Shown: piece after piece, positions 2,458 through 64,000 of the stretch
Numbering within the stretch: position 1 is the first letter of the stretch
Layout: the number at the start of each line of letters is the position of its first letter
NCBI GenBank assembly: GCA_017552965.1
Contig: JAFZNQ010000115.1
Location: forward strand, 62,001-126,000
Direction of reading: 5' to 3'
DNA from: Abditibacteriota bacterium
Lineage (GTDB): Bacteria > Armatimonadota > UBA5829
DNA length: 64,000 nucleotides
The notes under the pieces: model-generated
The model's database searches: none
What the model saw: the letters and a program-made list of their open reading frames with translations, nothing else
What the model was told of the DNA's origin: nothing
Made by a program: the position numbers and the translations under genes

Positions 2458-2458
2458 G

Positions 2459-4864
2459 TCAGGCCTGTTCCTCCGAAGGGAGAGATTCCACAAAGTCGGG
2501 CGAAGACTTCATCTTGTGCAGCTGGTCTCCGTTGCAGATGACCACCAGCTTGTCCCCCGCCTGGAACTTGGTGTCCATATCCGGATTGGCCACCATCTCG
2601 CCGTCCGGATGTCTGACCGCCACTATGGTGACGTGGAACTCGCCCCGGAAGTTGGACTCCCGGATGGTCTTGCCCACCAGAGCGCTGTTTTCGGCTATGG
2701 TAAACTCTTCGAACAGGATGTCAAAGGAGTTGCCGTGGTAGGTGAGCTCGTTGAAATCAAACACTGTGGGCCGCAGGATGGCGGCGGCCATCTTTCTCCC
2801 GCCGAACAGATAGGGGGATATGACCTTGTTGGCCCCTGCCCTCTTCAGCTTGTCGGCGTTCTCCGCCTCTATGCTGCGGGCGACTATGTCCAGAGAGGGG
2901 TTCAGATTCCGGGCGGTGAGCACTATGAACACGTTTTCCTCGTCGCTGGGATACACCGCTATGAGGCCCTTTGCCCGGGAGATGCCCGCCAGCTCCAGAG
3001 CCTTGTCGGAGGAGGCGTTGCCCTTGACGTAGAGCAGGCGCTGATCTTCTATCTCCTCAAAATGGTCGGGGTTGCTCTCTATTATCACAAAGGGCACTCC
3101 CTCCGCTCCCAGATCCCTGGCGATCTGCCGTCCCATGCGGCCGTAGCCGCAGATGATATAGTGGTCGCTGGTCCCGTCCACTGCCTTCTGTATCTTTTCG
3201 GCCTTTTGCTTCATTTCTGTTTCGTACATAAGGTTTACAGCCTCCTTCGCTGCGTCATAATTGGGATCAAAAACCAGATCCACGTTCTTGAGCGACTTCA
3301 TCTCCTCCATGTCATCCAGGTCGCAGGCCGTGGCAAATACTCCCTTGAAGCCGGCGTTGGCCAGGGCTATCTGCATATGCCGGACGGCGGTGACGTCATG
3401 GATGGTGGATATGACCCACTTTACGTTGGTGAGCTTCAGCTGGGACACGAAGCCGGGGCTTTCCGCATCTCCGTAGATGATGTTCTTGCCCAGATTGCGG
3501 CGCTCCGACACCACCATAGGGTCAAAGTCCACCTCCAGCAGCTTCTTTCCGTATTCGGAGAGGATGTCCGACAGGGTGGAGCCAAAGCCGCCGGCGCCTA
3601 TGATCACGGCGTGATATCCGGACACGGTCTCCTCGTCGGTGTCCATATCCTCAGTGGCGCGCTTTTTGGCGCCTTCATGCCGGCCCGTCAGGGCGTCGAT
3701 GGATTTGTTCAGGGCCTCGTAGAGTCTGGAGGAATAGTTCATGAGATACGAGGAGCTGAGACAGGTGGTGATGAGGGTCAGCACCATGAGACTGGTGGCG
3801 TCCTGATGCAGATGCCCCAGCCCTATGCCAAAGGTGGTAAGTATCAGTGAAAACTCACTGATCTGCGCCAGATTGATGCCGGACAAAAAGCCGGTGCGCT
3901 TTTTGTAGCCCATGACGTTCATGATGAGCATCACTATGTAGGGCTTGATCACCGTGACGAATATGACCACAGAGAAGGCGCCGGTGAGAGTGTCCAGTAT
4001 GTTCTTGTCGTCAAAATCCAGGCCTATGATGATGAAGAAAAACACCAGCATAAAGTCCCTGATACCCGTGAGCAGAGAACTGATGGTGTAGCGGTACTCC
4101 TTGAAGCCGGCCAGGGTGATGCCCGCCAGAAAGGCGCCCACCTCCATGCCGAAGCCCGCCACCTCGCAAAAGCCTGCAAAGAGTATGGCCAGGCCCATGC
4201 TGATGATCATCAGGAACTCCTTGGACTTGGCTATGATCTTCAGGGTCCTGGGAAGTATCCATTTTGACAGGATGAATATCATGCCCGCCAGCACGGCGCC
4301 GTTGCCCGCCAGCTTCAGCATCCTCATCCCGAAGGAGTCGTCGGACTTCACGAATATGGAATTCATCACTATCATAAAGACCACGGCGATGATGTCCTGG
4401 ATGATGAGTATGCCCAGGTCTATCCTGCCGGGCAGGGAGTCGATCTCCTTTTTGTCCGACAGCACCTTGATGATGACTATGGTGGACGAAAAAGCCAGGC
4501 CCATGCCTATATAGATGGAGCCTATGGGCTTGAAGCCCATCAGCAGAGCCATGCCGTAGCCTGCCAGAGCCGTGATGAGCACCTGCAGGGTGCCTATCTT
4601 CATGGCGTTGCCCATGCTCTTCAGCACGCCCACGTCCAGCTTGAGCCCCACGATAAACAGCAGCAGAGTCAGTCCGAAGTCGGACAGCTCCTTGAACTGC
4701 TCCGTGTCTATACGGTCGTCTATACCCAGCAGGTTGATGATGAGGCCCACCAGGATATAGCCTACCAGCATGGGCTGCTTGAATTTCTGGGTGACAAAGC
4801 TCATGCCTATCAGGGCCAGTATCAGGAACACCATAGGCATCAGCAAACTCAGTTCATGAGGCAT
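2459..4864 (-). CDS. CPA2-family cation/proton antiporter with two RCK modules (KefB/KefC-like)
   Basis: An 801-aa inner-membrane monovalent cation (K+ or Na+)/H+ antiporter. Residues about 5-380 are a run of hydrophobic helices of the Na+/H+ exchanger type, including the LIIQDIIAVV stretch typical of Kef/CPA2 proteins. The cytoplasmic half has two Rossmann RCK-N modules, one beginning VIIGAGGFG near residue 420 and one beginning YIICGYGRMG near 545. A TrkA-C-like domain fills residues about 715-800. Most CPA2 proteins carry one RCK-N, so the double module is notable. A good ribosome site (AAGGAGAG) precedes the ATG. The gene sits 3 nt after the heparinase-like gene and 1 nt before the GH36 gene. 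The transported ion cannot be decided from sequence. Confidence 0.88.
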   Translation of the reverse strand: MPHELSLLMPMVFLILALIGMSFVTQKFKQPMLVGYILVGLIINLLGIDDRIDTEQFKELSDFGLTLLLFIVGLKLDVGVLKSMGNAMKIGTLQVLITALAGYGMALLMGFKPIGSIYIGMGLAFSSTIVIIKVLSDKKEIDSLPGRIDLGILIIQDIIAVVFMIVMNSIFVKSDDSFGMRMLKLAGNGAVLAGMIFILSKWILPRTLKIIAKSKEFLMIISMGLAILFAGFCEVAGFGMEVGAFLAGITLAGFKEYRYTISSLLTGIRDFMLVFFFIIIGLDFDDKNILDTLTGAFSVVIFVTVIKPYIVMLIMNVMGYKKRTGFLSGINLAQISEFSLILTTFGIGLGHLHQDATSLMVLTLITTCLSSSYLMNYSSRLYEALNKSIDALTGRHEGAKKRATEDMDTDEETVSGYHAVIIGAGGFGSTLSDILSEYGKKLLEVDFDPMVVSERRNLGKNIIYGDAESPGFVSQLKLTNVKWVISTIHDVTAVRHMQIALANAGFKGVFATACDLDDMEEMKSLKNVDLVFDPNYDAAKEAVNLMYETEMKQKAEKIQKAVDGTSDHYIICGYGRMGRQIARDLGAEGVPFVIIESNPDHFEEIEDQRLLYVKGNASSDKALELAGISRAKGLIAVYPSDEENVFIVLTARNLNPSLDIVARSIEAENADKLKRAGANKVISPYLFGGRKMAAAILRPTVFDFNELTYHGNSFDILFEEFTIAENSALVGKTIRESNFRGEFHVTIVAVRHPDGEMVANPDMDTKFQAGDKLVVICNGDQLHKMKSSPDFVESLPSEEQA

Positions 4865-4867
4865 AGA

Positions 4868-6760
4868 TCACTCTCCTTGTTGGGGGACGTCTCCGGCAGC
4901 CTGCGCCTGCAGGGTGTCGCCGGAATAGTCGAGCACACATACTCCCTCCGGCGCAGAGACCGACAGAGTCTTATTCTGTTCGTCGAGGCGGCAGCGGTCC
5001 ATGGCGTCGTCGCTGCCCGTCAGCACCGCCAGCAGCCTGTGGCTGGTCCTGTAGGCTTCCCTGACCGTCAATACGCTGTGGGTGCTTTCGTGACCGGTGA
5101 CCCAGTCCTCCAGCAGATAGCCGGTGCCGATGGAATAGCTCCAGGAAGCCGGCTTGAAGAGATGCACCCTCAGGGTCCTGGGCTCCGGAGCCGACTCCAC
5201 CAGAGAAAAGCCCTGGACCGGGTCCAGACTGTTGACATAAAACCGGCCGTTGCCGTGCCACAGCCACTGGATGCAGCCGGCGGCGGGACTCTGGATATTG
5301 TCATACATCACTATGATGTCCGGCTTGACAAAGGCTATGCTGCGGTAAAAGGGCAGCTCTTCTCCGTTGCAGTCATACACAGCCCGGGCGGTGACCAGGT
5401 CCGCCAGCTCGCCGGCATGAAAGCCTGTGATGGTGCCCTCCGTCTCGCTGACCACGTTGACGCCTTCGTGATATATGGAATTGTGGGCCGTCTCGCTCCT
5501 GTATCTGTCAAAAAAGTTGGGCTGCTGCGACCAGGCGATGCCGTTGTTGATCAGCATGTTGGAGCTCCCCAGAAACAGCTGTATGTCGTTCTGGGTGCAG
5601 TAGCGGTCGCCGTAGGGGGTGGCCACGGAGCGGGTGCTTTTGAGGCTGATGAGCATGTCGTTCCTGTCGTAGCCGCTCCTGAGGACCGCAAAGCCCGCAA
5701 AGGGATATATGACGCTCCGGCCCCTGGGGGCAGCCGCGCCGGCTGGATAGTCCATAAAGAATATCTCTTCCGGCTGGGCCCATCTGCCGGGCATCCTTTC
5801 CCGGGAGATGCCCCAGCCTATGAGGGGGTCTGCAAACCACACCGCCAGAGCCCTGGAGGCAAAGCCGTAGAGCTGCCTGCCTATGGACAGCTTCACGTCG
5901 TCCTCCATGATGTTGATCTCTCCGGCCAGCGGGGCCGCCAGATCTATGGCGAACCTGCGGGACCGGGCCAGAGCCGGATGCTGCCGGTGGTCTATGCCGG
6001 AAAAGGAGTAGAGGGCGTTGATGAAGAGGCATATGCTCCCCATGACGTATTGCCACCGTATCACGCCTCTCATATGGCTCCCGTCGGGAGGGATAGTGTC
6101 CAGATAGTCCAGGATATGCTTTGCTGCGGCGTCGAACCAGCGGCTGCTCCGGACGTCATAATCCGACAGCAGCATGGCGGACATACACAGCGAGACGGCT
6201 ATATCGCACACTACGTCCCTGTCCGCTCCCGCCTCTTCGGAGGGCCCGGACAGTATCTCGCAGAGCCTCTGGGACACGGCGCAGAGATATCTTTTGACCT
6301 TGTCTATGAGCTCCGGATCCCCGTGGGCGCCGAAGGTGTCCGCCAGCACGGACAGCCCCTTCACCACCGCCGCCGTCTCCGGCGAAGCCACTCCGAAAGA
6401 GACTCCCCGGCCACCGGCAAAGACCGGCTCCGCCAAAAAGCTCTCCATGGCTTCCTCCGCCAGCTCCACGTATTTGCGGTCCCCGGTGAGGAGCATCATG
6501 GCGCTGATGGCGAAGAGCCTGGTCTTCAGGCTCATGAGACCGTAGGAGCGGGGGGCGTGTTTCTTGTCTATATCCAGAGCGATGCAGTCCGGATTGAAGA
6601 GAGCCCCGGTGTCCTCTTCGGCAAGGCGGGCGATATGCCTCAGCATATCCCCGTATCTCACCAGCTCCAGCCGGTCCAGGGTCCTGCGCAGGCGGTCACC
6701 GTCCGCCAGGAGAAAGGGCTCCTTTCTGCGGGAGCAGCCCGCCCAGTCAAAGGCAGGCAT
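4868..6760 (-). CDS. Heparinase II/III-like family protein
   Basis: A 630-aa protein with the layout of heparinase II/III-like or alginate-lyase-like enzymes. It has an N-terminal (alpha/alpha) helical region and a C-terminal beta-sandwich beginning around FAGFAVLRSGYDRNDML. Motifs in the second half include QNDIQLFLGSSNMLINNG and TAHNSIYHEGVNVV. Such enzymes cleave uronic-acid polysaccharides by beta-elimination. I chose the ATG at 6760 because it overlaps the upstream RCK gene stop by one base (TGATG); the reading frame stays open further upstream, but that part is out-of-frame RCK sequence. No clear signal peptide is visible, which is unusual for this family. Substrate is unknown. Its place between K+ transport genes and before GH36 suggests a link between ion homeostasis and polysaccharide use, or a shared transcript only. 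Confidence 0.72.
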   Translation of the reverse strand: MPAFDWAGCSRRKEPFLLADGDRLRRTLDRLELVRYGDMLRHIARLAEEDTGALFNPDCIALDIDKKHAPRSYGLMSLKTRLFAISAMMLLTGDRKYVELAEEAMESFLAEPVFAGGRGVSFGVASPETAAVVKGLSVLADTFGAHGDPELIDKVKRYLCAVSQRLCEILSGPSEEAGADRDVVCDIAVSLCMSAMLLSDYDVRSSRWFDAAAKHILDYLDTIPPDGSHMRGVIRWQYVMGSICLFINALYSFSGIDHRQHPALARSRRFAIDLAAPLAGEINIMEDDVKLSIGRQLYGFASRALAVWFADPLIGWGISRERMPGRWAQPEEIFFMDYPAGAAAPRGRSVIYPFAGFAVLRSGYDRNDMLISLKSTRSVATPYGDRYCTQNDIQLFLGSSNMLINNGIAWSQQPNFFDRYRSETAHNSIYHEGVNVVSETEGTITGFHAGELADLVTARAVYDCNGEELPFYRSIAFVKPDIIVMYDNIQSPAAGCIQWLWHGNGRFYVNSLDPVQGFSLVESAPEPRTLRVHLFKPASWSYSIGTGYLLEDWVTGHESTHSVLTVREAYRTSHRLLAVLTGSDDAMDRCRLDEQNKTLSVSAPEGVCVLDYSGDTLQAQAAGDVPQQGE

Positions 6761-37773: not shown

Positions 37774-38874
37774 CTATATGATCACTCTGGGCACCAGACT
37801 GTCCACCGGTATCCTCATGGAGTCCAGCTCCACCCGGTCGTCGGTGCGGACAGAGTCCCTGATATCGGTGATATCCACTATGGTCATCTGCATGGCCACC
37901 TTGCCCAGCACCGGGGCCTCGGCGCCGGCGATCCTCACCACTCTTTTGCGAAAACGCTTCTTCATGAAGAACCTCAACGGCTCCATGCGATACACCAGAG
38001 CCTCGGGTATCATGGTAAAGCCGTCGCCGAAGCCGGCGGATATCACGGCGCAGGTCATGGGCTTTTTGGCCACGAACTCGCTGCCGTAGCCCACCGTGTC
38101 CCCGGGCAGCAGCTCCTTGATCTCGCACACTCTGCAGCACAGCTGCCAGGTGTTTTGGAGAGTGATGTGATCCTTTTTGGCGTAGATGGAGGGAAACTGG
38201 CCGTAGAGGCTGGTGCCCACCCGGACCATATCCAGATGCATATCCGGGAACCTCAGGGCGGCTCCGGAATTGCAGCAGTGGGCCAGGCCGTAGTCAAAGC
38301 CGTGGCGCTTCAGGTCCGTAAGGGCGTCCTGGAATTTGGCGAATTGCTGCTGGGTGAACTTGATGTCCAGCTCCCCGGACCGGGCAAAATGGGTGTAGAT
38401 GCCCGCCACGGTGATATTCTGCAGCCCGGACATGCTCCGGAAGAGGTCCGTCACCGCGCCGGGTCTGACCCCCAGACGCCCCATGCCCGTGTCCACCTTC
38501 ACGTGGACCCGGGCGGTCTTTCCCATCCGGGCAGCTGCCCGGGAGATGTTCACCGCGTCCCTTTCGGCGGACACGGTCAGCTCCAGGTCCAGCTCCAGGG
38601 CTTCGGCTATGTTGTCGGCAGCGGGGTTCATAAAGACCAGCACGGGGGTCCGGATGCCTGCGTCCCGTATCATCCTGGCCTCGTCGATATGGGTGACTGC
38701 CAGATAGTCGGCTCCCAGCTCCGCGAACACGCGGCTCACCTCCGCTATGCCGTGGCCGTAGCCGTTGGACTTCACCACGCAGCACAGACGGGTCCCTTCC
38801 GAGAGCAGGCCCCGGATCACCCGGTAGTTGTTTTCAAGAGCGTCCCTGCGGACCTCTACCCAAATGTCATGCAT
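37774..38874 (-). CDS. alr: Alanine racemase
   Basis: A 366-aa PLP enzyme that makes D-alanine for peptidoglycan. The PLP Lys35 is in VVKSNGYGHG. The catalytic Tyr is in DTVGYGSEF near residue 260. VDTGMGRLG is also present. Its position next to femX and in a genome with a MurB-Ddl fusion completes a D-Ala supply route. It overlaps the femX gene by 8 nt. Confidence 0.97.
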   Translation of the reverse strand: MHDIWVEVRRDALENNYRVIRGLLSEGTRLCCVVKSNGYGHGIAEVSRVFAELGADYLAVTHIDEARMIRDAGIRTPVLVFMNPAADNIAEALELDLELTVSAERDAVNISRAAARMGKTARVHVKVDTGMGRLGVRPGAVTDLFRSMSGLQNITVAGIYTHFARSGELDIKFTQQQFAKFQDALTDLKRHGFDYGLAHCCNSGAALRFPDMHLDMVRVGTSLYGQFPSIYAKKDHITLQNTWQLCCRVCEIKELLPGDTVGYGSEFVAKKPMTCAVISAGFGDGFTMIPEALVYRMEPLRFFMKKRFRKRVVRIAGAEAPVLGKVAMQMTIVDITDIRDSVRTDDRVELDSMRIPVDSLVPRVII

Positions 38875-49212: not shown

Positions 49213-49971
49213 TTACACCTCCAGTGTCAGCCCGTCATAGGCTGCGAACACGTTGTCCGGCAGCTCCCGGGACAGAGTCTCATGATCTACGTTGTGGGTC
49301 AGGTGGGTCAGATAGCATCTGCCCGGCCTGTATCTGGCCACAAACTCTATGGCTTCTTCTATGTTGAAATGGGAGCAGTGCTCCCTGTATCTCAGGCCGT
49401 CCAGCACCAGAGTGCCGCAGTTCTCAAAGTATTTTTCGCTCTCCGGCGGCACCGTCTTCACGTCCGTGGCATAAACCAGGTCCCCTATCCTGAAGGAGAG
49501 GATGGGCAGATTGCCGTGCATCACCCTGAAGGGGATGATGTGCAGGCTCCCCAGGTCAAAGGGCCCCCGGATAACGTTGAGGACTATCTTCGGTATCTGG
49601 CTGGGATTGATGGGAGGCCGGAACATATAGGGAAAGGCGGTCCTGATACAGTCCGCCACCCTTTTCTCCGCATAGAGGGGCATGGTCCTGCCCGTCTTCA
49701 TGGTAAAGCCCCGCACGTCGTCTATACCGAAGAGGTGGTCGGCGTGCTCATGGGTGTATATCACCCCGTCTATATCCTCTATGCCCTCCCGGATGCACTG
49801 CAAACGGAACTCCGGAGGCGTGTCTATCACCAGCCGGGTGCTGCCGTCCGTGATATACACGGCAGACCTGTACCTTTTGTTTTTGGGGTCCTCCGAGCGG
49901 CACACTTCACAGTGGCAGCCCACCTGGGGTATGCCGGTGCTGGTCCCCGTGCCCAAAAAGGTCAGCTTCAT
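49213..49971 (-). CDS. MBL-fold metallohydrolase (PhnP-like)
   Basis: A 252-aa metallo-beta-lactamase-fold phosphodiesterase. The metal motif is THEHADH. The N-terminal Cys-rich insertion CHCEVCRSED is typical of the PhnP/lipoyltransferase-associated subgroup. The start at 49971 overlaps the AlgJ-like stop as ATGA; a longer open frame upstream is not homologous. It probably cleaves a cyclic phosphodiester, but the substrate is unknown. It lies 2 nt before htpX. Confidence 0.88.
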   Translation of the reverse strand: MKLTFLGTGTSTGIPQVGCHCEVCRSEDPKNKRYRSAVYITDGSTRLVIDTPPEFRLQCIREGIEDIDGVIYTHEHADHLFGIDDVRGFTMKTGRTMPLYAEKRVADCIRTAFPYMFRPPINPSQIPKIVLNVIRGPFDLGSLHIIPFRVMHGNLPILSFRIGDLVYATDVKTVPPESEKYFENCGTLVLDGLRYREHCSHFNIEEAIEFVARYRPGRCYLTHLTHNVDHETLSRELPDNVFAAYDGLTLEV

Positions 49972-50942
49972 TTGACTACGGGCACCTTGGCCCACCCCTG
50001 GGCGCTCTCGGTGAACTCTCTGGCGGCAAAGCACCAGATCACCACCTTTTTCCCTTTGAGTGTGTCGGGCTTTCTCATCAGGCTCACCCGCACGGAGGTG
50101 GAGCCGGAGCCCTTGACTCCCAGCAGGTCCACCGGCATCTTCAGCCTGGCTGCCAGAGCCTCCGCAAAGCCGGCGTTCACCGCCAGCATATCCCCGCCGC
50201 TGTGAAACACCAGGGTGTGGCTGTCTCCCATCAGCAGCACGGGGCTGGAGGCGGAGACCGCCTTCTGGCAGGAGGTGATCCTGACGCTCTCCTTGGGCAC
50301 GGCCTTGTTCATGGTCCTCATGTCGCCGCTGATCTCAATGGTCTTGGCGGAGCCTGCAAAGGAGGTCTTGGCCGCGGCCTTGTACCAGGCCTCTCCCTTG
50401 ACTGCGCTGAGCACCGCTCCCGCAGCGGCGTTCATGCCTCCCGGAGCCCAGTGGGAATCGGTCTTCAGATACAGATCGCCGTGAGGCTTGGCGGCTATAA
50501 AGGCAGGCGCCAGGTCTATGACCCGGACCCCCTTGGACTTCAGCAGAGCGTAAAAGTCCTGGCAGGCCTTGTCGGCCCTGGCGTTGGCGGAGGTCTTGAC
50601 CCCTGTCAGCAGCTCGGGATAAATGGCGGCCTTGGCAGGCACGGGCATCAGTATCAGCTCTATGTTCTTTTTCTTCAGCTGCTCGTTGAAGTCCACTATG
50701 GCCGGAAGAGGGTCGGCCAGCTCAGCCTTGGCCGCTGAGGCCTTGGCAGCGTTCGCTCCCCAAAAGCCGGTCTGAGCCAGAAAATGCAGCTCGCTCTTCA
50801 GGAACCAATAGCCGTTCTGGCCCTTGACGGCGCCGGAGGCGGCGTTTTTCCAGAGCTTGTCCATCTCCGTGGTGAACTGGGAGGCGGAGAGAGCCGTCGC
50901 CACAGTCAGCAGGACCAGCAGAAATGCTATCCGTCTAATCAT
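49968..50942 (-). CDS. AlgJ/AlgX-like O-acetyltransferase, exported (first copy)
   Basis: A 324-aa periplasmic SGNH-fold protein with a signal peptide (residues 1-20). It has an AlgX/AlgJ-type catalytic layout: Asp162-x-His164 in KTDSHWAPGG, and Ser241 in LMGDSHTL. Such proteins transfer acetyl groups, received through an AlgI MBOAT channel, onto a polysaccharide. It overlaps the lipoprotein gene by 8 nt. It is shorter than AlgX (about 470 aa) and lacks an obvious C-terminal carbohydrate-binding module. Confidence 0.82.
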   Translation of the reverse strand: MIRRIAFLLVLLTVATALSASQFTTEMDKLWKNAASGAVKGQNGYWFLKSELHFLAQTGFWGANAAKASAAKAELADPLPAIVDFNEQLKKKNIELILMPVPAKAAIYPELLTGVKTSANARADKACQDFYALLKSKGVRVIDLAPAFIAAKPHGDLYLKTDSHWAPGGMNAAAGAVLSAVKGEAWYKAAAKTSFAGSAKTIEISGDMRTMNKAVPKESVRITSCQKAVSASSPVLLMGDSHTLVFHSGGDMLAVNAGFAEALAARLKMPVDLLGVKGSGSTSVRVSLMRKPDTLKGKKVVIWCFAAREFTESAQGWAKVPVVK

Positions 50943-51414
50943 CTTCCTCTTCTCCTTTTTTTACCTTGTCGTTCCTGAACCAGGCGTCCAGCACGTAGCT
51001 GTCCGGGTCGTCCAGCTCTATGCGCTGATAGGTGCCGTATTTGCCCTCGGCGCTCTTCCAGGGGACGATCTCCATGGTCACCCTGTCCCCCGGGGCTATG
51101 GAGGCGTTGTCGGTCTCCTCTCCCCCGTCCAGGCTCACCACATAGACCAGAATGCCGTCCTTGGCGTTCTTCACTTCCTCATTGGCGCTGTCGGCGTCCG
51201 TGAGCCATATGGCAGTGATGCAGTCCCAATAGGGAGTGGAGCCCTTGGCGGGCAGCCGGCTCACGTCCTTTACGGTGCCGGTGACCTGAGCGGTCTTGAC
51301 CCCGGCAGAGGGGTCTATCCGATATACCAGCTCCTCACCGGTCTTTTTGCCGCAGCCCCCAAGGGCCAGAGCCGCAACGAGGAGCGCAAGGCACAAAGCA
51401 GCGTATTTTGTCAT
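50935..51414 (-). CDS. Small lipoprotein of the O-acetylation cluster
   Basis: A 159-aa lipoprotein with lipobox LGGC (Cys20). The rest is a probable beta-rich domain with an acidic tail (KKGEEEDD). No family is recognised. It sits between the two AlgJ-like genes, overlapping one by 8 nt and 4 nt from the other. It may anchor or regulate the acetylation machinery at the outer or inner membrane. Confidence 0.72.
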   Translation of the reverse strand: MTKYAALCLALLVAALALGGCGKKTGEELVYRIDPSAGVKTAQVTGTVKDVSRLPAKGSTPYWDCITAIWLTDADSANEEVKNAKDGILVYVVSLDGGEETDNASIAPGDRVTMEIVPWKSAEGKYGTYQRIELDDPDSYVLDAWFRNDKVKKGEEEDD

Positions 51415-51418
51415 AGTA

Positions 51419-52624
51419 TCATTCTCCCTTTGGTATTTTGTTCCAGTCCAGGCTTTCCCAGTCTCCCAGAGCTATCTCCCGCTGGGCAAACTCGTATATC
51501 ACCCAGGTCTTGCCCTCCAGCAGGTCGGGCCTGTGGTTTTTGGCGGAGTAGATCAGGTTTTTGTAGAGCTCTCTGCGGGAGGCGGAAGCGCCTCCGGCGT
51601 TCAGAGCCAGCTTGTCAACTCCCGAGCCCGTGAGACAGCGGAGCCTTTCCGCCAGACCCGCGTCCCGGCCCCATTTCAGTGAGCCGTCGGAATAGATGTT
51701 GGAGTAGCTGTCTCCCAGCAGCAGTATCCGGCTGTCGGCAGGCTCCCCCACGGGCGAAAGCAGAGTCACGGTCTCTTCGGCGTATTTCTTCTGCATATCC
51801 GGCAGCTGCAGCATGTCAAATATGTCTCCCCTGTTGGAGGCTATGAGCTCTCTCGTCTCCGGGGCTCTGCCGAAGGTCCCGGTGATCCGGGCCAGGCTTT
51901 CCGCCGCCAGAGACAGGCCGTAAGGGGTCCAGTGGGTGTCGCATTTCAAATACAGGTCCCGGTCCCGGCGCTGCCGAAACAACTCCGAGAGGTCGCACAC
52001 CCGGCAACCCTCCTTTTCAAGCGCCCGGAGGAGCCCCTCCAGCGAGGGGTCTTCGGTCCCCTTCCCCCAGGCCCCGGCAAACCGTTCGGGATATACGTAC
52101 AGTTTGTTGGGCACGGGCATCACTATGAGCTCCACGCCCCGGGAGGCCAGATAGCGGCGGAGCCGGAGTATCTCCCCGGCGGCAGCCTCTCCCCGGGCGG
52201 AGTCCCCCGTCATCAGGGCTCTGAGCTCTTCGCTGTAAAACAGCTCTCCTTTCCGGCCCGTGAGGGCCTTTTCGTTGCCCGTGTCCAGCCCAACGGTCAG
52301 GACGTACTGGACCGCCGGCCGCAGGGCCCGGGACAGATACTGCCCCTCCTCCACGCGGGTCTCAAAGGCCTTGATCTCCTCCGGCGAGGCAAAGAGCCTG
52401 CCGGCGTCCCGGAGGCCCCGGACCTGCTTCAGCCGGCTCCGGTCCGGCAGGAGCTTCAGGACTCCCGCCTCGGCGACCCGGCCCTTGTCCGCATATTCGC
52501 GGCAGACCTGAAACGCGGGAGGCGCGAACAGCATCAGCAAAAAGACCGCCACCGTGATCCGGGCAGCTGCAGGCGATATCCGGGTATGCTCCAGATATCC
52601 GCGGGCTTGTTCTTCTCTTGTCAT
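51419..52624 (-). CDS. AlgJ/AlgX-like O-acetyltransferase, membrane-anchored (second copy)
   Basis: A 401-aa protein with an N-terminal helix (about 25-42: ITVAVFLLMLFAPPAF) and a periplasmic SGNH-like domain. The Asp-x-His pair is in KCDTHWTPYG, and the catalytic Ser in LLGDSYSNIY. I place the start at 52624, 4 nt after the AlgI stop; an upstream in-frame Met would lie inside AlgI. It shares motif order with the shorter copy, but the sequences are clearly divergent. This is probably the AlgJ-equivalent partner of AlgI. Confidence 0.85.
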   Translation of the reverse strand: MTREEQARGYLEHTRISPAAARITVAVFLLMLFAPPAFQVCREYADKGRVAEAGVLKLLPDRSRLKQVRGLRDAGRLFASPEEIKAFETRVEEGQYLSRALRPAVQYVLTVGLDTGNEKALTGRKGELFYSEELRALMTGDSARGEAAAGEILRLRRYLASRGVELIVMPVPNKLYVYPERFAGAWGKGTEDPSLEGLLRALEKEGCRVCDLSELFRQRRDRDLYLKCDTHWTPYGLSLAAESLARITGTFGRAPETRELIASNRGDIFDMLQLPDMQKKYAEETVTLLSPVGEPADSRILLLGDSYSNIYSDGSLKWGRDAGLAERLRCLTGSGVDKLALNAGGASASRRELYKNLIYSAKNHRPDLLEGKTWVIYEFAQREIALGDWESLDWNKIPKGE

Positions 52625-52628
52625 GATC

Positions 52629-54080
52629 TCAGAATATAAAATAGATAAACGGATTGTACGACTGGACCGCCAGCATGGCCACTGACAGCACAAACAGGAC
52701 AAAGCCTGTGATGATGACTCCGGCTGTCAGCTTCTGGGTGTATTCCCAGGTATCCGCCAGGCCCCACACTGCAAAGCCCGCCAGCAGGAAGCTGATCAGG
52801 TAGTAGGGCTTCATGAGCAGTCCGGCTATCAGCCCGTGATCGGCGCCGGACACGGCTGCCGGGGCAAACATGCACCGGATATAGGTCAGGGCCTCCGGCA
52901 GGCTGCCGCTGCGGAAAAAGATCCAGCCGAACATGACCAGCAAAAAGGTGAGGGCAGTCTGCAGCCACGCCGGCGCTCTGTGGTAAAAAGGCCTTTTGCC
53001 GTTCATCCTCTCAAGGGCCAGCAGTATGCCGTGGAGCCCGCCCCATATGACGAAGGTCCAGCCGGCTCCGTGCCACAGACCCCCCAGCAGCATCACCAAA
53101 AACAGATTGAGATAGGTGCGCCACGGTCCCTTTCTGTTGCCTCCCAGAGGGATATACAGATAATCCCTGAGCCAGCTTGACAGGGAGATATGCCACCTGC
53201 GCCAGAACTCCGTGATGGACCGGGACTTGTAGGGCATGTCAAAGTTGCGTATATACACGAAGCCGAACATGAGCCCCAGCCCCACCGCCATATCCGAATA
53301 GGCGCTGAAATCAAAATATATCTGAAAGCTGTAGCCGAGCGCGCCGTACCAGGCGTGGAGCGCGTGTATGGGCGCCGCGTCAAAGCAGGTGTCCGCCAGC
53401 TTGCCGCAGGGGTTGGCCAGCAGCACCTTTTTGGCCAGACCGAAGGCAAAGAACATGGCTCCCCGGGCAAATTTGTCTGCAGACACGGTCCTTGCGGTCA
53501 GCTGCCGGGCTATCTCCGAAAACCGGATGATGGGGCCCGCCACCAGCTGGGGGAACATGGCCACGAAGCAGGCAAAATCCACAAAGCTCCTCATGGGCCT
53601 GGCGTGTCCCCTGTAAACGTCGATGGCGTAGCTCATGGACTGAAAGGTATAAAAGCTGATGCCCAGAGGCAGCACCACGTTAAGGGTATGCCCCAGCCCG
53701 GGCAGGCCCAGGGCCTCCAGCAGGGCGCTCAGGTTATGACAGGCAAAATTGTAATACTTAAAAAAGCCCAGGACAGCCAGATTGGTCACCACCGACGCGA
53801 TCATGGCGCCCCTTTGCATGCGGGAACGCTCCCCGCCTGCCTTCAGCTCCCGCATCTCCCCCCGGAAACGAAAGCCGTCATAGGCCTGCACCAGCCCCGC
53901 CACGTAATCTATGAGGGTGGAGGCAAACATCAGCAGCACGAACAGAGGGTTCGTCCAACCGTAAAACAGGTAGCTGATGACGGTGAGAACTCCGTTTTTC
54001 AGCCGCTTGGGAACGGCGTAATAGACGAGAAGCGCTGCCGGCAGGAACCAGAATATGAACCAGACCGAGCTGAATACCAC
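52629..54080 (-). CDS. MBOAT-family O-acyltransferase (AlgI-like)
   Basis: A 483-aa polytopic membrane protein that passes acetyl or other acyl groups across the inner membrane for polysaccharide acylation. The conserved His337 is in LGGLWHGAGWTFVIWGGLHG. PDNF-type and SFYTFQSMSYAIDVYRG motifs of AlgI are present. The start codon is GTG. The downstream pair of AlgJ-like genes forms a complete acyl-relay set. No alginate polymerase genes are in the window. Confidence 0.94.
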   Translation of the reverse strand: MVFSSVWFIFWFLPAALLVYYAVPKRLKNGVLTVISYLFYGWTNPLFVLLMFASTLIDYVAGLVQAYDGFRFRGEMRELKAGGERSRMQRGAMIASVVTNLAVLGFFKYYNFACHNLSALLEALGLPGLGHTLNVVLPLGISFYTFQSMSYAIDVYRGHARPMRSFVDFACFVAMFPQLVAGPIIRFSEIARQLTARTVSADKFARGAMFFAFGLAKKVLLANPCGKLADTCFDAAPIHALHAWYGALGYSFQIYFDFSAYSDMAVGLGLMFGFVYIRNFDMPYKSRSITEFWRRWHISLSSWLRDYLYIPLGGNRKGPWRTYLNLFLVMLLGGLWHGAGWTFVIWGGLHGILLALERMNGKRPFYHRAPAWLQTALTFLLVMFGWIFFRSGSLPEALTYIRCMFAPAAVSGADHGLIAGLLMKPYYLISFLLAGFAVWGLADTWEYTQKLTAGVIITGFVLFVLSVAMLAVQSYNPFIYFIF

Positions 54081-58192: not shown

Positions 58193-59365
58193 TTATTTCC
58201 TGTCCTTCATGAAGTCGGGCACCTTGAAATTGCCGCTGGGCTTGCTGTAGCTCTGCTTCTGTTCCTGGGGGGCAGGCTTGGACGCGGGCGCCGTATGGGC
58301 AGGCTCCGCCTTGGGAGCGGTCTCGGCCTTGGGAGGCTGGGGAGCGCTCTTGGGCTTGCTGACGCCCACCACGGGGTTCACGAAGGGAGAGGACGACTGG
58401 TCAAAGCCGGTGGCCACCACGGTGATCTTGATCTCGTCCTTGTCGTCGGTCTTGAGTTTGTTGTCATAGACCACGCCGAAGATCACCTCGGTGTTCACGT
58501 TGTTGGCCTCGGCGGCGGAATTGATCACGGACATGGCGTCAAAGGTCTCCTGCAGCTCCAGGTCCTCGCTGGCGGTGATATTCACCAGGACGCCGGTAGC
58601 GTTTTCGATGGAGGCGTCCAGCAGCTTGCTGCGGCAGGCTGCCTCGGCGGCTATCTTCGCCCTGTTTTCACCGGAGGCAATACCTATACCCATGAGAGCG
58701 GAGCCCTTGTCCTTCATGATGTGCTCCACGTCGGCAAAGTCCACGTTGATGTGGCCGGGCTGGGTGATGATGTCGGAAATGCCCTGCACGCCGTTCTTGA
58801 GGGTCTCGTCGGCTATGAGAAAAGCGTTCTTCAGAGTGATCTTCTTGTCGCAGACCTCGCTGAGCTTGCTGTTGGGGATGGCTATCAGGGTGTCCACGCA
58901 GGTCTTCAGATTCTTGATGCCTTCCTCGGCCTTGGCCGCTCTCTGGCCGCCTTCCCACACGAAGGGACGGGTCACGATGCCCACGGTGAGGATGCCCAGC
59001 TTCCGGGATATGTCGGCCACCACGGGAGCCGCTCCGGTACCGGTGCCGCCGCCCATGCCGGCAGTGATGAAGACCATGTCGGCCTTTTCCGAAGTCTCGC
59101 CGCCCATGAGCTCCTTTTCTATCTCTTCCTTGCTGTCCTCGGCCGCCTGTCTGCCCACCTCGGGATTACCTCCGGCGCCCAGGCCGTGAGTGAGTCTCTC
59201 GCCCAGCACTATCTTCTTTTTGCAGCTGGACATATCCAGCACCTGCTGGTCGGTGTTCAGGACCACGAACTCCACGCCCTCTACGCCGCTTTCCATCATT
59301 CTGTGAACAGCGTTCATGCCGGCTCCGCCGACGCCCAATACCTTGATCTTTGCTCCGCTTGCCAT
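58193..59365 (-). CDS. ftsZ: Cell division protein FtsZ
   Basis: A 390-aa tubulin-like GTPase that forms the Z-ring. The GTP-binding signature is GGGTGTGAAP, and the N-terminal loop is VLGVGGAGMNAV. An Ala/Pro/Lys-rich linker of about 60 residues separates the core from the C-terminal peptide FKVPDFMKDRK, which is the usual FtsA/ZipA-binding tail. A good AAGGAGA ribosome site precedes the ATG. It follows ftsA by about 33 nt. Confidence 0.98.
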   Translation of the reverse strand: MASGAKIKVLGVGGAGMNAVHRMMESGVEGVEFVVLNTDQQVLDMSSCKKKIVLGERLTHGLGAGGNPEVGRQAAEDSKEEIEKELMGGETSEKADMVFITAGMGGGTGTGAAPVVADISRKLGILTVGIVTRPFVWEGGQRAAKAEEGIKNLKTCVDTLIAIPNSKLSEVCDKKITLKNAFLIADETLKNGVQGISDIITQPGHINVDFADVEHIMKDKGSALMGIGIASGENRAKIAAEAACRSKLLDASIENATGVLVNITASEDLELQETFDAMSVINSAAEANNVNTEVIFGVVYDNKLKTDDKDEIKITVVATGFDQSSSPFVNPVVGVSKPKSAPQPPKAETAPKAEPAHTAPASKPAPQEQKQSYSKPSGNFKVPDFMKDRK

Positions 59366-59398: not shown

Positions 59399-60619
59399 TT
59401 ATTTTGGAAACAACCGGCTGAAAAAGCCGATGAATTTTTTGCCTATAGTCTCTCTCCGGGCGCTCTCCCCGGCGTCGTCCGCCGCCATGACCTTCAGGGC
59501 GCCCAGCACCGGGAACCACTGAGGATCCTCGGTGATGTAGTCCATGCCCGACAGTCCGTAGGACCTGCCGGTCTTGACTCTGAGGCCCCGGGGAGCCTCC
59601 CGCGACAGGGCTGCCGCCAGCCCCCGGACCATGGCCAGACCGCCTGTATAGACGTAGCCGGCAAACACCTGATCTCCGTAGCCCTCGTTTTCCACACAGG
59701 CCGTCACCCGGTCCGCCAGCTGCCTGACCAGATCCTCCAGGAAACGGTTGTATTCTCCCATCTCCAGCCATTTGCGCTCCGGATCGGAGGCCAGCCCCAG
59801 GAGCTTTTTGTCCTTTGAGTCCGTCATCAGCAGATTGGAATAGTTGTCGAACACGTAGGACGCCTCCTCAAAGGGGATCCTGTACACCCAGGAAATGGTG
59901 TTGACCAGATCGTGTATGCCCACGGGCAGCACGGCGCACAGCTGTATGTTGCCCTCGGTAAACACTGCCACGTCGGTCTTGTCCCAGCCCACGTCGGCCA
60001 GGACCACGCCCAGATCCCTTTCGCCCTGCTTGATGCAGGCCTCTGCGGCCAGATAGCTCTCGGGAAAAATGTCCACGTCCTTCAGGCCCACCAGGTCCAC
60101 CAGCTGGCAGACGGCAGCCTTTTGCCGGTCGTCGGCATACGCCAGGAAATTCTCTCCCTGAAAACGGGTGCATTTTTCGCGGAGAGGGTCATAGGTGAAC
60201 TCGCCGTCCACGTAATACTTCTTGTTGGACACGAACATCACCGACTTGCCGAACACGGGGGCCGAGTCGCTGATCACCTTGTCCAGCCTGTCCAGTATGC
60301 CGTAGGTGATGCGGGTGGGCTGCGAAAAGGCGATCTCGCCGGACCTGTTCCGGGACTCCAGACCGGAGCCGCTGAGACTGAAGCAGACGTGGTCGGGGTC
60401 CCCCTTGGAAAGACCCATCTGATAGATCAGATCCCGGACTATGGCTGCCACCGCTTCGGTATTCAGGATGATGCCCTTTTCGATGCCCTCGGAATTCGCG
60501 TGAGCCACGTCTATGATCCGGACCGTATTACGGCCTGCGTCATAGCTGCCCAGGGCCGCCTTTATGGTTTTTGACCCGAGATCACAGGCCAGATAATAAC
60601 TGCTTTTCACTGCGTCCAA
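59399..60619 (-). CDS. ftsA: Cell division protein FtsA
   Basis: A 406-aa actin-like ATPase that tethers FtsZ to the membrane. The phosphate-binding start is ACDLGSKTIKAALG, a second-domain motif is VLADVGWDKTDVAV, and YVTGG-like YVYTGGLAMV lies near 330. The C-terminal amphipathic helix KKFIGFFSRLFPK is the membrane anchor. The start is uncertain: TTG at 60619 or GTG at 60610, neither with a strong ribosome site. Its own promoter lies at 60660-60689. Confidence 0.94.
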   Translation of the reverse strand: MDAVKSSYYLACDLGSKTIKAALGSYDAGRNTVRIIDVAHANSEGIEKGIILNTEAVAAIVRDLIYQMGLSKGDPDHVCFSLSGSGLESRNRSGEIAFSQPTRITYGILDRLDKVISDSAPVFGKSVMFVSNKKYYVDGEFTYDPLREKCTRFQGENFLAYADDRQKAAVCQLVDLVGLKDVDIFPESYLAAEACIKQGERDLGVVLADVGWDKTDVAVFTEGNIQLCAVLPVGIHDLVNTISWVYRIPFEEASYVFDNYSNLLMTDSKDKKLLGLASDPERKWLEMGEYNRFLEDLVRQLADRVTACVENEGYGDQVFAGYVYTGGLAMVRGLAAALSREAPRGLRVKTGRSYGLSGMDYITEDPQWFPVLGALKVMAADDAGESARRETIGKKFIGFFSRLFPK

Positions 60620-60702: not shown

Positions 60703-61077
60703 TCAGGGATTTTTTTTTGGAGCCCTCCTCCCCTTGATGAACTCCACCCTGATGATGGACAGATTGAGGAATATCCTGCCGCCCAGGACTATGAGGGCAG
60801 CCAGAAACAGGTCTATCCTCAGCAGGTCTCCTATGTAGGCCAGACCTGCGGCCAGCAGAGCGTTGCAGAAAAAGCCCGACAGGAATATGGAGTCTTCAAA
60901 ATTGCCCTGCAGTCTGGCCCTCACACCGCCGGTGATGGCGTCCAGACCCGCCAGCAGCGCCAGGGACAGATAGCTGGCCCACTTGCCGGGCAGGTCCACG
61001 GGGGCAAAATACACCGCCAGGCCCAGCATAAAGGCCAGCACGGGATACAGATACAGCTTCAGCCGGGCCTTGTTCAT
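60703..61077 (-). CDS. Small basic family protein (Sbp/DUF1290)
   Basis: A 124-aa integral membrane protein with three or four helices and the conserved GLDAITGGVRARLQGNFEDSIF region in the middle (only part quoted here: GGVRARLQ). It ends in a basic tail (KGRRAPKKNP). The family lies beside DUF881 and ftsA/ftsZ mostly in Gram-positive lineages and has a poorly defined role in division or membrane organisation. It overlaps the DUF881 gene by 4 nt. Confidence 0.92.
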   Translation of the reverse strand: MNKARLKLYLYPVLAFMLGLAVYFAPVDLPGKWASYLSLALLAGLDAITGGVRARLQGNFEDSIFLSGFFCNALLAAGLAYIGDLLRIDLFLAALIVLGGRIFLNLSIIRVEFIKGRRAPKKNP

Positions 61078-61805
61078 TTGGTCACCTCCCGGGCGTAGGT
61101 GAACTTGGTAGAGCCGGTGTAGGCCGGCAGCTCCAGCTTTTTCTCCTTGGTCACCGTGAGCATGCCCAGCACCTGCAGATCTGCCACGGTGCCTCCGGGC
61201 ATATTGATGCCCGTGTAGAGGTCGTCGGGGTTGCCCACGGCCTTGATGACGTAAGGGGGAAAGACCCTGATATTATTCACCAGAATGGGAGTGCCGGCGC
61301 AGCGGATGGAGGTGTTGGCCACTATCCTCTGCTCGTTCACGGACACGGCCTCGGCTCCGGAGTTGAAGAGCTCGTTCACCGTCAGCACTATGTCCGAGTA
61401 GTGCACCAGCAGCTGGTCTATCTCGTAGGCGGGCGAATCCTTGGATATCTTGGGGCTGTCCACCAGAGTGACTATGACCCCGGGGCCCGACACGGCGCTG
61501 GTGCCGGCCAGCAGCTTGCTCTCCGTGAGGATGTTTTCCAGCCTCTGGGTGCTGGCCACGCCCTTTGCCTGCTCCACGGCCATTTTTTCCGTGAGAGCCT
61601 TCTGGTCAGCCAGCTCCTTCTGCAGCTTGATGTTTTCATCCTTGGCGTATTTGAGGAGCGAGCCGGCGTCGGCCATCCTGATGGGGATGCCCTCTCTGAT
61701 GGCCTGTATCTGGGTCTTGAAGGTGAGAGCAAACAGCACGCCCAGTATGAAGCACAGGATCACCAACTCGGCGAGCCAGCTTTTTCCGTGACTTGCAGGA
61801 ACCAT
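61074..61805 (-). CDS. DUF881 family protein
   Basis: A 243-aa protein with one N-terminal TM helix (about 12-30), a coiled coil (about 48-85: LLKYAKDENIKLQKELADQ) and a C-terminal DUF881 domain (SAVSGPGVIVTLVDSP, EAVSVNEQRIV, VFPPYVIKAVGN). Its function is unknown. DUF881-Sbp pairs next to ftsA/ftsZ are a recognised gene order. It lies 3 nt after ftsQ. Confidence 0.92.
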   Translation of the reverse strand: MVPASHGKSWLAELVILCFILGVLFALTFKTQIQAIREGIPIRMADAGSLLKYAKDENIKLQKELADQKALTEKMAVEQAKGVASTQRLENILTESKLLAGTSAVSGPGVIVTLVDSPKISKDSPAYEIDQLLVHYSDIVLTVNELFNSGAEAVSVNEQRIVANTSIRCAGTPILVNNIRVFPPYVIKAVGNPDDLYTGINMPGGTVADLQVLGMLTVTKEKKLELPAYTGSTKFTYAREVTK

Positions 61806-61808
61806 TCG

Positions 61809-62801
61809 TTACTCCTTTGGAAAATCTTTTAAGTTCTTTTTGGGCTTGTAGGTGGCGGTCTCGTCGTCCAGGAGACATATCTCCCGGGCGTTCCGGAGAA
61901 TATCCGGCCTGAGACGGCTGATGGCAGAGAGCAGGTCCAGCTTTTCGATGGTGTTGGCCAGAGCGCCGAACTCCACCGTGGGGCCCTCCCCCGCCAGATC
62001 CAGCACCAGGGAGGAATCGGCGTCCACCCACAGCTTGGCCGGCCGCAGCTTTTTCTGGTCCGCATAGACAGCTACGTTGTACAGGAACTGCAGATCGTAT
62101 ATCTGCCTGCGTCTCAGATTGATCTTGTCGGCAAAATACTGCTCCACCGACTTTTCGTCGGCGAACTTGCCGGACCCTCCCTCCGGGGAAAGGGCGGCCA
62201 GAGCCTGAGCCTTTTTGGCATTCTGGGTCCGGGCGTAGGCGTCGGCGTTCATGTCGGAAATGCTGCGGCCCACGGAGGGCTCCACCCCGGATATCAGCAC
62301 GGGCAGAGGTCTGGTGCGCTCCCCCCGGGCCAGCTTGTGAAACACGAAGCCGCTCCTGTCCGTCAGATATTCGTTTCTGTCCTGCTTCACCAGGGCAAAG
62401 GGAGTCCTCTCCTTCACCCGGACGCTGACCGTGTCGGGAAAGCGGATGACGGCTCTGACGCTCAGCACCTCCGGCTGGGCCAGCACGTCCCTGCACTCGG
62501 AGCTCCTGACGAACATGGCGCAGAAGATATTTTTTCCCTCGTATCTCTCGGCGGCCTTACGGGCCACGGCGGCCTTGGAATACCGGACCCCTTTTACCCC
62601 CGTGTTCTCCACGCCAAAGCCGGGATAGGTGAGCAAAAAGCCCGCCACAAAGCCGGCTATGACAAATATGCCAAACAGCCTGAGGACCCTGAAGACGTTG
62701 TCAAAGGCCCTCCTGACAGCGGTGTCGGGAGGCCCTCCTGCCCCGTCGCCGGGGGCGGGAGTGTCCAGATTGGTCTGGCTGATGCGTCTGTCACGTCTCA
62801 T
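61809..62801 (-). CDS. ftsQ: Cell division protein FtsQ/DivIB
   Basis: A 330-aa bitopic protein of the divisome. A cytoplasmic tail of about 35 residues is followed by a TM helix (about 38-60: LFGIFVIAGFVAGFLLTY). A POTRA domain lies at about 68-140 (VKGVRYSKAAVARKAAERYEG, quoted in part: VKGVRYSK). A beta domain follows with DRSGFVFHKLARGERTRPLPVL (in part: LTDRSGFVF). It overlaps the end of the MurB-Ddl gene by 11 nt. Confidence 0.88.
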   Translation of the reverse strand: MRRDRRISQTNLDTPAPGDGAGGPPDTAVRRAFDNVFRVLRLFGIFVIAGFVAGFLLTYPGFGVENTGVKGVRYSKAAVARKAAERYEGKNIFCAMFVRSSECRDVLAQPEVLSVRAVIRFPDTVSVRVKERTPFALVKQDRNEYLTDRSGFVFHKLARGERTRPLPVLISGVEPSVGRSISDMNADAYARTQNAKKAQALAALSPEGGSGKFADEKSVEQYFADKINLRRRQIYDLQFLYNVAVYADQKKLRPAKLWVDADSSLVLDLAGEGPTVEFGALANTIEKLDLLSAISRLRPDILRNAREICLLDDETATYKPKKNLKDFPKE

Positions 62802-64000
62802 TTTGCGCGCTGCCGATCATGATGTCCAGAAAGGCTTCAAAGCTGATGCCGGCGGCCATGAGGGCCTTGGGCACCAGACTGGTGGGAGTCATGCCGGGTA
62901 TGGTGTTGGTCTCCAGGACCTGGATGCCTCCTCCGGGCTCCACGATCATATCCGTCCTGGACACGCCTCTGCAGCCCAAAGCCCTGTGGGCGGCCAGAGC
63001 CAGCTCCGCTGCCCGGGTGGCCGCGGCCCCGTCAAGGCGGGCCGGGCATATCTCGGCAGTCCTGCCGGGCACGTATTTGGCTTCCAGGTCGTAGAGGCCC
63101 TCGTCGGGCACTATCTCTATGGCGGGCAGGGCCATGGGCCCCTTGTGGGTGTCCAGCACGGCCACTGTGATCTCCGTGCCCTCCACGTTCTCCTCCGCCA
63201 TGATGACTGCGTCGTATTCGGCCGCGGTCCGCACCGCCTGCTCCAGCTCCTCCTCCGTACAGACCTTGGTCATGCCGATGGTGGAGCCCTGACACACGGG
63301 CTTTATGAACAGGGGATACCTGAGACCGGCGCACTGGGTCCGGGCGTCGGCGGGCCGGGAGGCGCTGATGATCACCGCCTCGGGAGTGGGGATGCCGTGC
63401 TGCCTGTATATCTTTTTGCTGACGGCCTTGTCGATGGCCAGAGCGTGGCCCAGGATGCCGGAGCCCGTGTAGGGGATGCCCAGCATCTCCAGCAGGCCCT
63501 GGACGGCTCCGTCCTCGCCGTATTTGCCGTGAAGGGCCACAAAGCACACGTCGGGCCTCTTGTCCCTGCCCTCAAAGAGCAGGCTGCAGGGAGCGGCAAA
63601 GCCGGACTCGTAAAACGCTTCTATCTGCTCTCTGTGGACTTCCATCATGGGATATTTTTCCACCACTGTCTGCCAGCCGGGGCGCAGCCCCGCCACGTCT
63701 ATGCCGCAGACGTCGTATTTGTCCTTGTTGAGAGCCAGGCATATCTGATAGCCGGTGACCAGAGAGATGTTTCTCTCGGAGGACAGTCCTCCCATGAGCA
63801 CCGCCACCCTTGTTTTGGAAAAGTCGCCCACCAGCCGCACCTCCGGCTCCAGCTCCACGCCCTTTTCCCGCAGCACCCGGTCCCTGACGCGGCCGGCCAG
63901 CGCGCAGACGTCAGAGGCGGAAGCGCCGTCGGCGTTGATGATGAAATTGGCGTGCTCCTCCGCCACTCTGGCTCCTCCGGCTGCTGCGCCCTTCAGGCCG
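62791..64000 (-). CDS. MurB-Ddl fusion protein, 5' part outside window
   Basis: The frame is open to the window edge. The first 60 visible residues are the C-terminal part of MurB (UDP-N-acetylenolpyruvoylglucosamine reductase): LKGAAAGGARVAEEHANFIIN and the catalytic Glu of LEPEVRLVG. With no stop, it continues within about 5 residues into D-alanine--D-alanine ligase: VLMGGLSSERNIS, LHGKYGEDGAVQGLLEMLG, and the ATP-grasp end LETNTIPGMTPTS. The Ddl half (about 340 aa) looks intact. Cytoplasmic peptidoglycan precursor synthesis is the role. A start within the gene (GTG codons near the Ddl start) is possible, so separate translation of Ddl is not excluded. It is the first visible gene of the division operon. 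Confidence 0.88.
   Translation of the reverse strand, partial: GLKGAAAGGARVAEEHANFIINADGASASDVCALAGRVRDRVLREKGVELEPEVRLVGDFSKTRVAVLMGGLSSERNISLVTGYQICLALNKDKYDVCGIDVAGLRPGWQTVVEKYPMMEVHREQIEAFYESGFAAPCSLLFEGRDKRPDVCFVALHGKYGEDGAVQGLLEMLGIPYTGSGILGHALAIDKAVSKKIYRQHGIPTPEAVIISASRPADARTQCAGLRYPLFIKPVCQGSTIGMTKVCTEEELEQAVRTAAEYDAVIMAEENVEGTEITVAVLDTHKGPMALPAIEIVPDEGLYDLEAKYVPGRTAEICPARLDGAAATRAAELALAAHRALGCRGVSRTDMIVEPGGGIQVLETNTIPGMTPTSLVPKALMAAGISFEAFLDIMIGSAQNET

Follow-up and report, generated by a model that had tools for sequence, protein, structure and literature searches.

MurB and Ddl are cell-wall precursor enzymes that most bacteria encode as separate genes; the product of MurB goes to MurC, whereas that of Ddl goes to MurF. 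In the genome of an Abditibacteriota bacterium the two are read in a single frame, which raises the question of whether they form one working protein, how the two genes became joined and what the joining might serve. The window, the whole stretch of 64,000 nucleotides that was analysed (G000:C115:62001-126000), comes from a draft of 138 contigs that is 97% complete. Open reading frame calling and translation showed that murB-ddl is one uninterrupted frame of 645 residues on the minus strand. Its part inside the window (62791-63999) is a single open frame in which the MurB C-terminus is followed by full Ddl without a stop, and past the window edge the frame reaches an ATG at contig position 126728 (window-equivalent 64728). 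The gene, its parts and its downstream neighbours are as follows.

62791..63999, minus strand: in-window part of murB-ddl, residues 244-645 and the stop codon (open reading frames, translation, placement in the genome)
G000:C115:124791-126728, minus strand: full murB-ddl gene, 645 aa, ATG start (open reading frames, translation)
63820..63999, minus strand: last 60 residues (244-303) of the MurB domain, the remainder lying past the window edge (Pfam MurB_C and FAD_binding_4, TIGR00179)
63805..63831, minus strand: junction VGDF-SKTRV, residues 300-308 (comparison with relatives and with the second species, G002)
62794..63819, minus strand: complete Ddl domain, residues 304-645 (Pfam Dala_Dala_lig_N/C, TIGR01205, PDB matches)
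61809..62801, minus strand: FtsQ-like gene, next downstream, with an 11-base overlap with the 3' end of the fusion (POTRA_1 at 20.6 bits, below the cut-off of 23)
61074..61805, minus strand: DUF881 protein (Pfam)
60703..61077, minus strand: DUF1290 protein (Pfam)
59399..60619, minus strand: FtsA (Pfam, NCBIfam)
58193..59365, minus strand: FtsZ (Pfam, NCBIfam)

The fused gene sits between murC and ftsQ; the stop codon of murC, identified by Pfam and NCBIfam, lies 3 bases upstream of the murB-ddl ATG. The surroundings are an ordinary division and cell-wall cluster, and an earlier sequence-only reading that put the fusion at the start of this cluster was slightly off, as murC is just upstream. 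Farther along the minus strand, past ftsZ (window 49968-54080), an MBOAT acyltransferase gene is followed by two AlgX-like SGNH genes, which are likely to be a polysaccharide O-acetylation set.

Both domains are complete. Pfam searches of the 645-aa protein placed FAD_binding_4 at residues 30-151 (PF01565, 39.6 bits), MurB_C at 212-300 (PF02873, 103.5 bits), Dala_Dala_lig_N at 307-423 (PF01820, 87 bits) and Dala_Dala_lig_C at 442-638 (PF07478, 169 bits), all above cut-off. Among NCBIfam models, TIGR00179 (murB) scored 188 bits against a cut-off of 144.5 and TIGR01205 (Ddl) 281 bits against 245.65, while NF010480 stayed under its own cut-off for the MurB half (234 versus 259). Since PDB matches to MurB stop at query residue 302 and those to Ddl start at 304-306, the linker is practically absent, about 2-5 residues. 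The sequence-only reading, which had seen 60 MurB C-terminal residues running into a complete Ddl through a few-residue linker, was thus accurate on the joint; its proposal to extend the frame 5' of the window edge yielded a complete MurB domain (1-303) and not a fragment, and the protein of 640-700 aa with both active sites that it predicted is the 645-aa protein, in which both sets of catalytic residues are present.

In alignments to solved MurB structures, the MurB half retains the Arg of YRNS and the Glu of LEPEVR, the catalytic pair. The position of the proton donor (Ser or Cys in MurB) is the Cys of AGCFFKNP; it is Ser in 4pyt and 1hsk and Cys in the Thermus-type structure 2gqt, and the tree alignment showed that Cys is the family norm, found in most of the order. 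Alignment of the Ddl half to E. coli DdlB (1iov/2dln) identified the Glu of SSER, the Ser of QGST, the Lys-Tyr of AKY, the Arg and Asp of SRTD, the Glu and Asn of ETNT and the Ser of TPTSL, residues that are catalytic in DdlB. The Lys-Tyr of the omega loop is kept, and Tyr at this position marks the D-Ala-D-Ala type and not the D-Ala-D-Lac type; NCBIfam models of Van-type ligases all scored far under cut-off on the 645-aa protein. Pfam detected no Mur_ligase domain in the protein, which sets it apart from the MurC-Ddl fusions of PRK14573, and murC is a separate gene with its own stop ahead of the fusion ATG, which sets it apart from MurB/MurC fusions. Structure prediction on a 496-aa fragment, with four rows, gave a mean pLDDT of 47, too poor for use.

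The fusion is the sole copy of each enzyme. A genome-wide Pfam search returned a single MurB_C match and, for Ddl, a single strong one (172 bits), both of which are murB-ddl; besides these there were two weak ATP-grasp matches at 32 and 30 bits. Because no other MurB or strong Ddl is encoded, both halves are expected to be needed. The genome also has an alanine racemase, as well as four good matches to Mur ligases. The main alanine-racemase C-terminal domain match is on contig C39, and a second one (66.8 bits) lies in the window at 37819-38145 on the minus strand.

The fusion of the two genes is genuine, and these features make it highly probable that it yields one bifunctional MurB-Ddl enzyme; the bifunctionality proposed by the sequence-only reading is well supported by sequence. 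In such an enzyme, the N-terminal half (1-303) would reduce UDP-GlcNAc-enolpyruvate to UDP-MurNAc with FAD and NADPH, and the C-terminal half (304-645) would join two D-alanines using ATP, at distinct active sites that most likely function independently of each other. The fusion would provide the two enzymes in a fixed 1:1 ratio and make their co-synthesis obligate, hardening a translational coupling that relatives probably obtain from gene overlap. MurB activity of the fused protein is not to be assumed, because the Verrucomicrobium spinosum MurB/MurC fusion, although it complements both mutants, shows no MurB activity in vitro (PMC4803751).

Alternatively, the selective reason might be a catalytic gain, through channelling or through recruitment of a Mur enzyme complex with MurC or MurF, and not merely a fixed ratio. 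Mur enzymes are believed to assemble into complexes, and fusions between them are recurrent (PMC6420597), and MurC-MurB and MurC-Ddl fusions are also present in this phylum. However, nothing passes between the MurB and Ddl sites, their products going to different enzymes, and separate murB and ddl genes are the rule among relatives. Channelling from one half to the other is unlikely for two reactions that do not follow one another in the pathway, and we regard a catalytic gain in general as an improbable account. The co-localisation of reductase and ligase suggested by the sequence-only reading therefore holds trivially, in that they form one chain, but an advantage from it is unproven. As the partners exchange no product, MurB-Ddl argues for coupled expression, enzyme ratio or complex formation, and not channelling, as possible causes of such fusions.

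The same in-frame fusion was found in a second species of the genus, G002 (Abditibacteriota MAG RGIG10284, yak rumen, JAGDAG010000044.1), as the expectation of occurrence in relatives had foreseen. It is 67% identical up to the end of its contig, which cuts the Ddl half; the final part is on another contig. Across the joint, the two species share 80% protein identity over 41 residues, and the identities at the three codon positions are 0.85/0.88/0.29. Because the protein is conserved while third positions are only 29% identical, the joint is translated and maintained by selection; judged from the codons, sequencing error could not yield such a constrained pattern. The MurB halves gave a dN of 0.25 and a dS of 1.46 (dN/dS about 0.17), and the available part of Ddl a dN of 0.32 and a dS of 1.06 (dN/dS about 0.30), values that are rough because dS is near or beyond saturation.

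The conservation of the joint also bears on whether the fusion, although translated, ends up as two separate working enzymes, either because the protein is cut or because translation of Ddl can also begin at an internal start codon. Proteolysis is compatible with the sequence, and the source genome has GTG codons at residues 308 and 310 and an ATG at residue 312. Against this, the start codon that relatives use for ddl has been lost in both fused species, the GTG codons are GTC/GTT in the second species, and the sole start codon near the joint common to both, the ATG in VLM-GG, would delete the first beta strand of Ddl. Together with the conservation of the joint at the protein level, this makes two separate enzymes quite improbable, and the chain probably remains uncut. 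An assembly or sequencing artefact joining two overlapping genes, for which a one-base error in a draft of 138 contigs would suffice, is in practice ruled out by the second species, which was assembled separately, is only 67% identical and has the same in-frame joint, no ATG and constrained codons, and the stop or frameshift between the halves that was named as a refuting outcome did not occur.

The route by which the fusion probably arose can be read by comparison with relatives that have overlapping or abutting gene pairs. Most of the family relatives checked have a murB whose end runs over the start of ddl or stops a few bases from it, with the two genes in different frames: the ddl frame is shifted by one base relative to that of murB, and the ddl ATG is inside or just past the murB end. 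The boundary often carries the motif GAATGG, whose ATG starts ddl and is absent in both fused species. Comparison of G010 (murB ...GGGGAATGGCAAAAAAGCGA) with the second fused species (...GGAGACTTTACCAAAAAGCGC) revealed a net one-base difference between common ends. A net one-base change in an overlapping or abutting pair would thus place ddl in the murB frame, with loss of its ATG. In the third species of the genus, G001, murB and ddl are separate with an eight-base overlap. The tree of both proteins was ((G000,G002),G001), with local support of 1.00 for the two fused species and 1.00 for G001 as the next branch, and this topology points to a single fusion origin within the genus after the divergence of G001, although the separate-gene member is fast-evolving. 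In G010 (L043), an in-frame TAA near position 4342 breaks ddl after about 244 residues; it is either an assembly error or a broken gene.

The fusion has a narrow range. It was present in 2 of the 28 genomes of the class and 2 of the 291 genomes of the phylum, both in one rumen-type genus of Abditibacteriota. A wider search of relatives, covering 397 genomes (about 106 beyond the phylum set), returned no further fusion at the threshold used; the scan of named genomes relied on short peptide patterns and detects close relatives only. A search of viral contigs gave no matches. Several candidates were rejected: murB and ddl are separate in an Actinomycetota MAG (L034), and two apparent partial fusions (G093 and G064) are Ddl frames without MurB. 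In G110, from another family (L035, 2152-4140), murB and ddl are in one frame, but a TGA followed by the ddl ATG stands between them; this pair is one stop codon short of being a second MurB-Ddl fusion.

Fused pairs on record are MurE-MurF, MurB-MurC, MurG-MurC, MurC-Ddl and MraY-MurG (PMC6420597), a list that does not contain MurB-Ddl, and a literature search of open-licence PMC papers found no MurB-Ddl fusion. Like the MurB/MurC fusion of V. spinosum and other Verrucomicrobia (PMC4803751), MurB-Ddl joins MurB to an adjacent dcw-cluster enzyme and is lineage-restricted; in the Verrucomicrobia, however, MurC is N-terminal and catalyses the consecutive step, whereas here MurB is N-terminal and its partner is Ddl. 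The Chlamydia MurC-Ddl fusion, as far as it is described under PRK14573 and in PMC4803751, which cites McCoy and Maurelli 2005, likewise has Ddl at the C-terminus and non-consecutive partners, but it carries MurC at the N-terminus, an ATP ligase in place of the flavoprotein MurB, and murC is separate here. The Bordetella MurE-MurF protein (PMC6420597) also unites two cytoplasmic enzymes of precursor synthesis in a single chain and has been shown to be active; it consists of different enzymes, which catalyse consecutive steps. Because MurB/C and MurC-Ddl fusions are already known, MurB-Ddl is a new combination and not a new kind: a new pairing of ordinary enzymes with a clear origin, which extends by one pair the small set of known fusions between enzymes of cell-wall precursor synthesis.

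Other members of the murC-murB-ddl trio are fused elsewhere in the phylum. A sister genus in the same family carries MurC-MurB fusions of 754 aa (L036, G006, 3489-5753) and 758 aa (L043, G010, 1362-3638), which are of the Verrucomicrobium type (PMC4803751) and here occur outside Verrucomicrobia. In other families of the phylum, a genome search found MurC and Ddl in one open frame in roughly 95 genomes, outside the Chlamydiae in which such a fusion is known. Seven of these loci were confirmed by local tblastn, five of them also by Pfam:

L037, L039, L040, L041, L042, L046 and L059 (genomes G209, G124, G107, G222, G118, G181 and G120): MurC-Ddl in an open frame of about 750-910 aa

The one that was compared with PRK14573 scored 372 bits, far below the cut-off of 1015, so the MurC-Ddl proteins of this phylum are not necessarily members of the chlamydial family. 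With MurC-MurB in the sister genus, MurB-Ddl in the window and MurC-Ddl in other families, all three pairwise fusions of the trio occur in the phylum. We tentatively suggest that MurB-Ddl is the first of its kind to be described and that the recurrence of trio fusions reflects a selective pull towards linking the three enzymes physically or stoichiometrically, and not random joining, though the case for this falls somewhat short of even. With a likely route visible within one family, from overlapping genes through a net one-base change, and with other pairs of the trio fused in sister lineages, the group is a natural setting in which to test why enzymes of cell-wall synthesis become fused.

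One further locus was observed in G127, a single-contig genome of 5.23 Mb (L061, G127:C1:5188560-5190901). MurC and Ddl are encoded there in one frame of 762 aa, and the first ~58 residues of MurC are in a separate frame of 151 aa, a layout that resembles the murC/ddl annotation of Fimbriimonas ginsengisoli discussed in PMC6327494.
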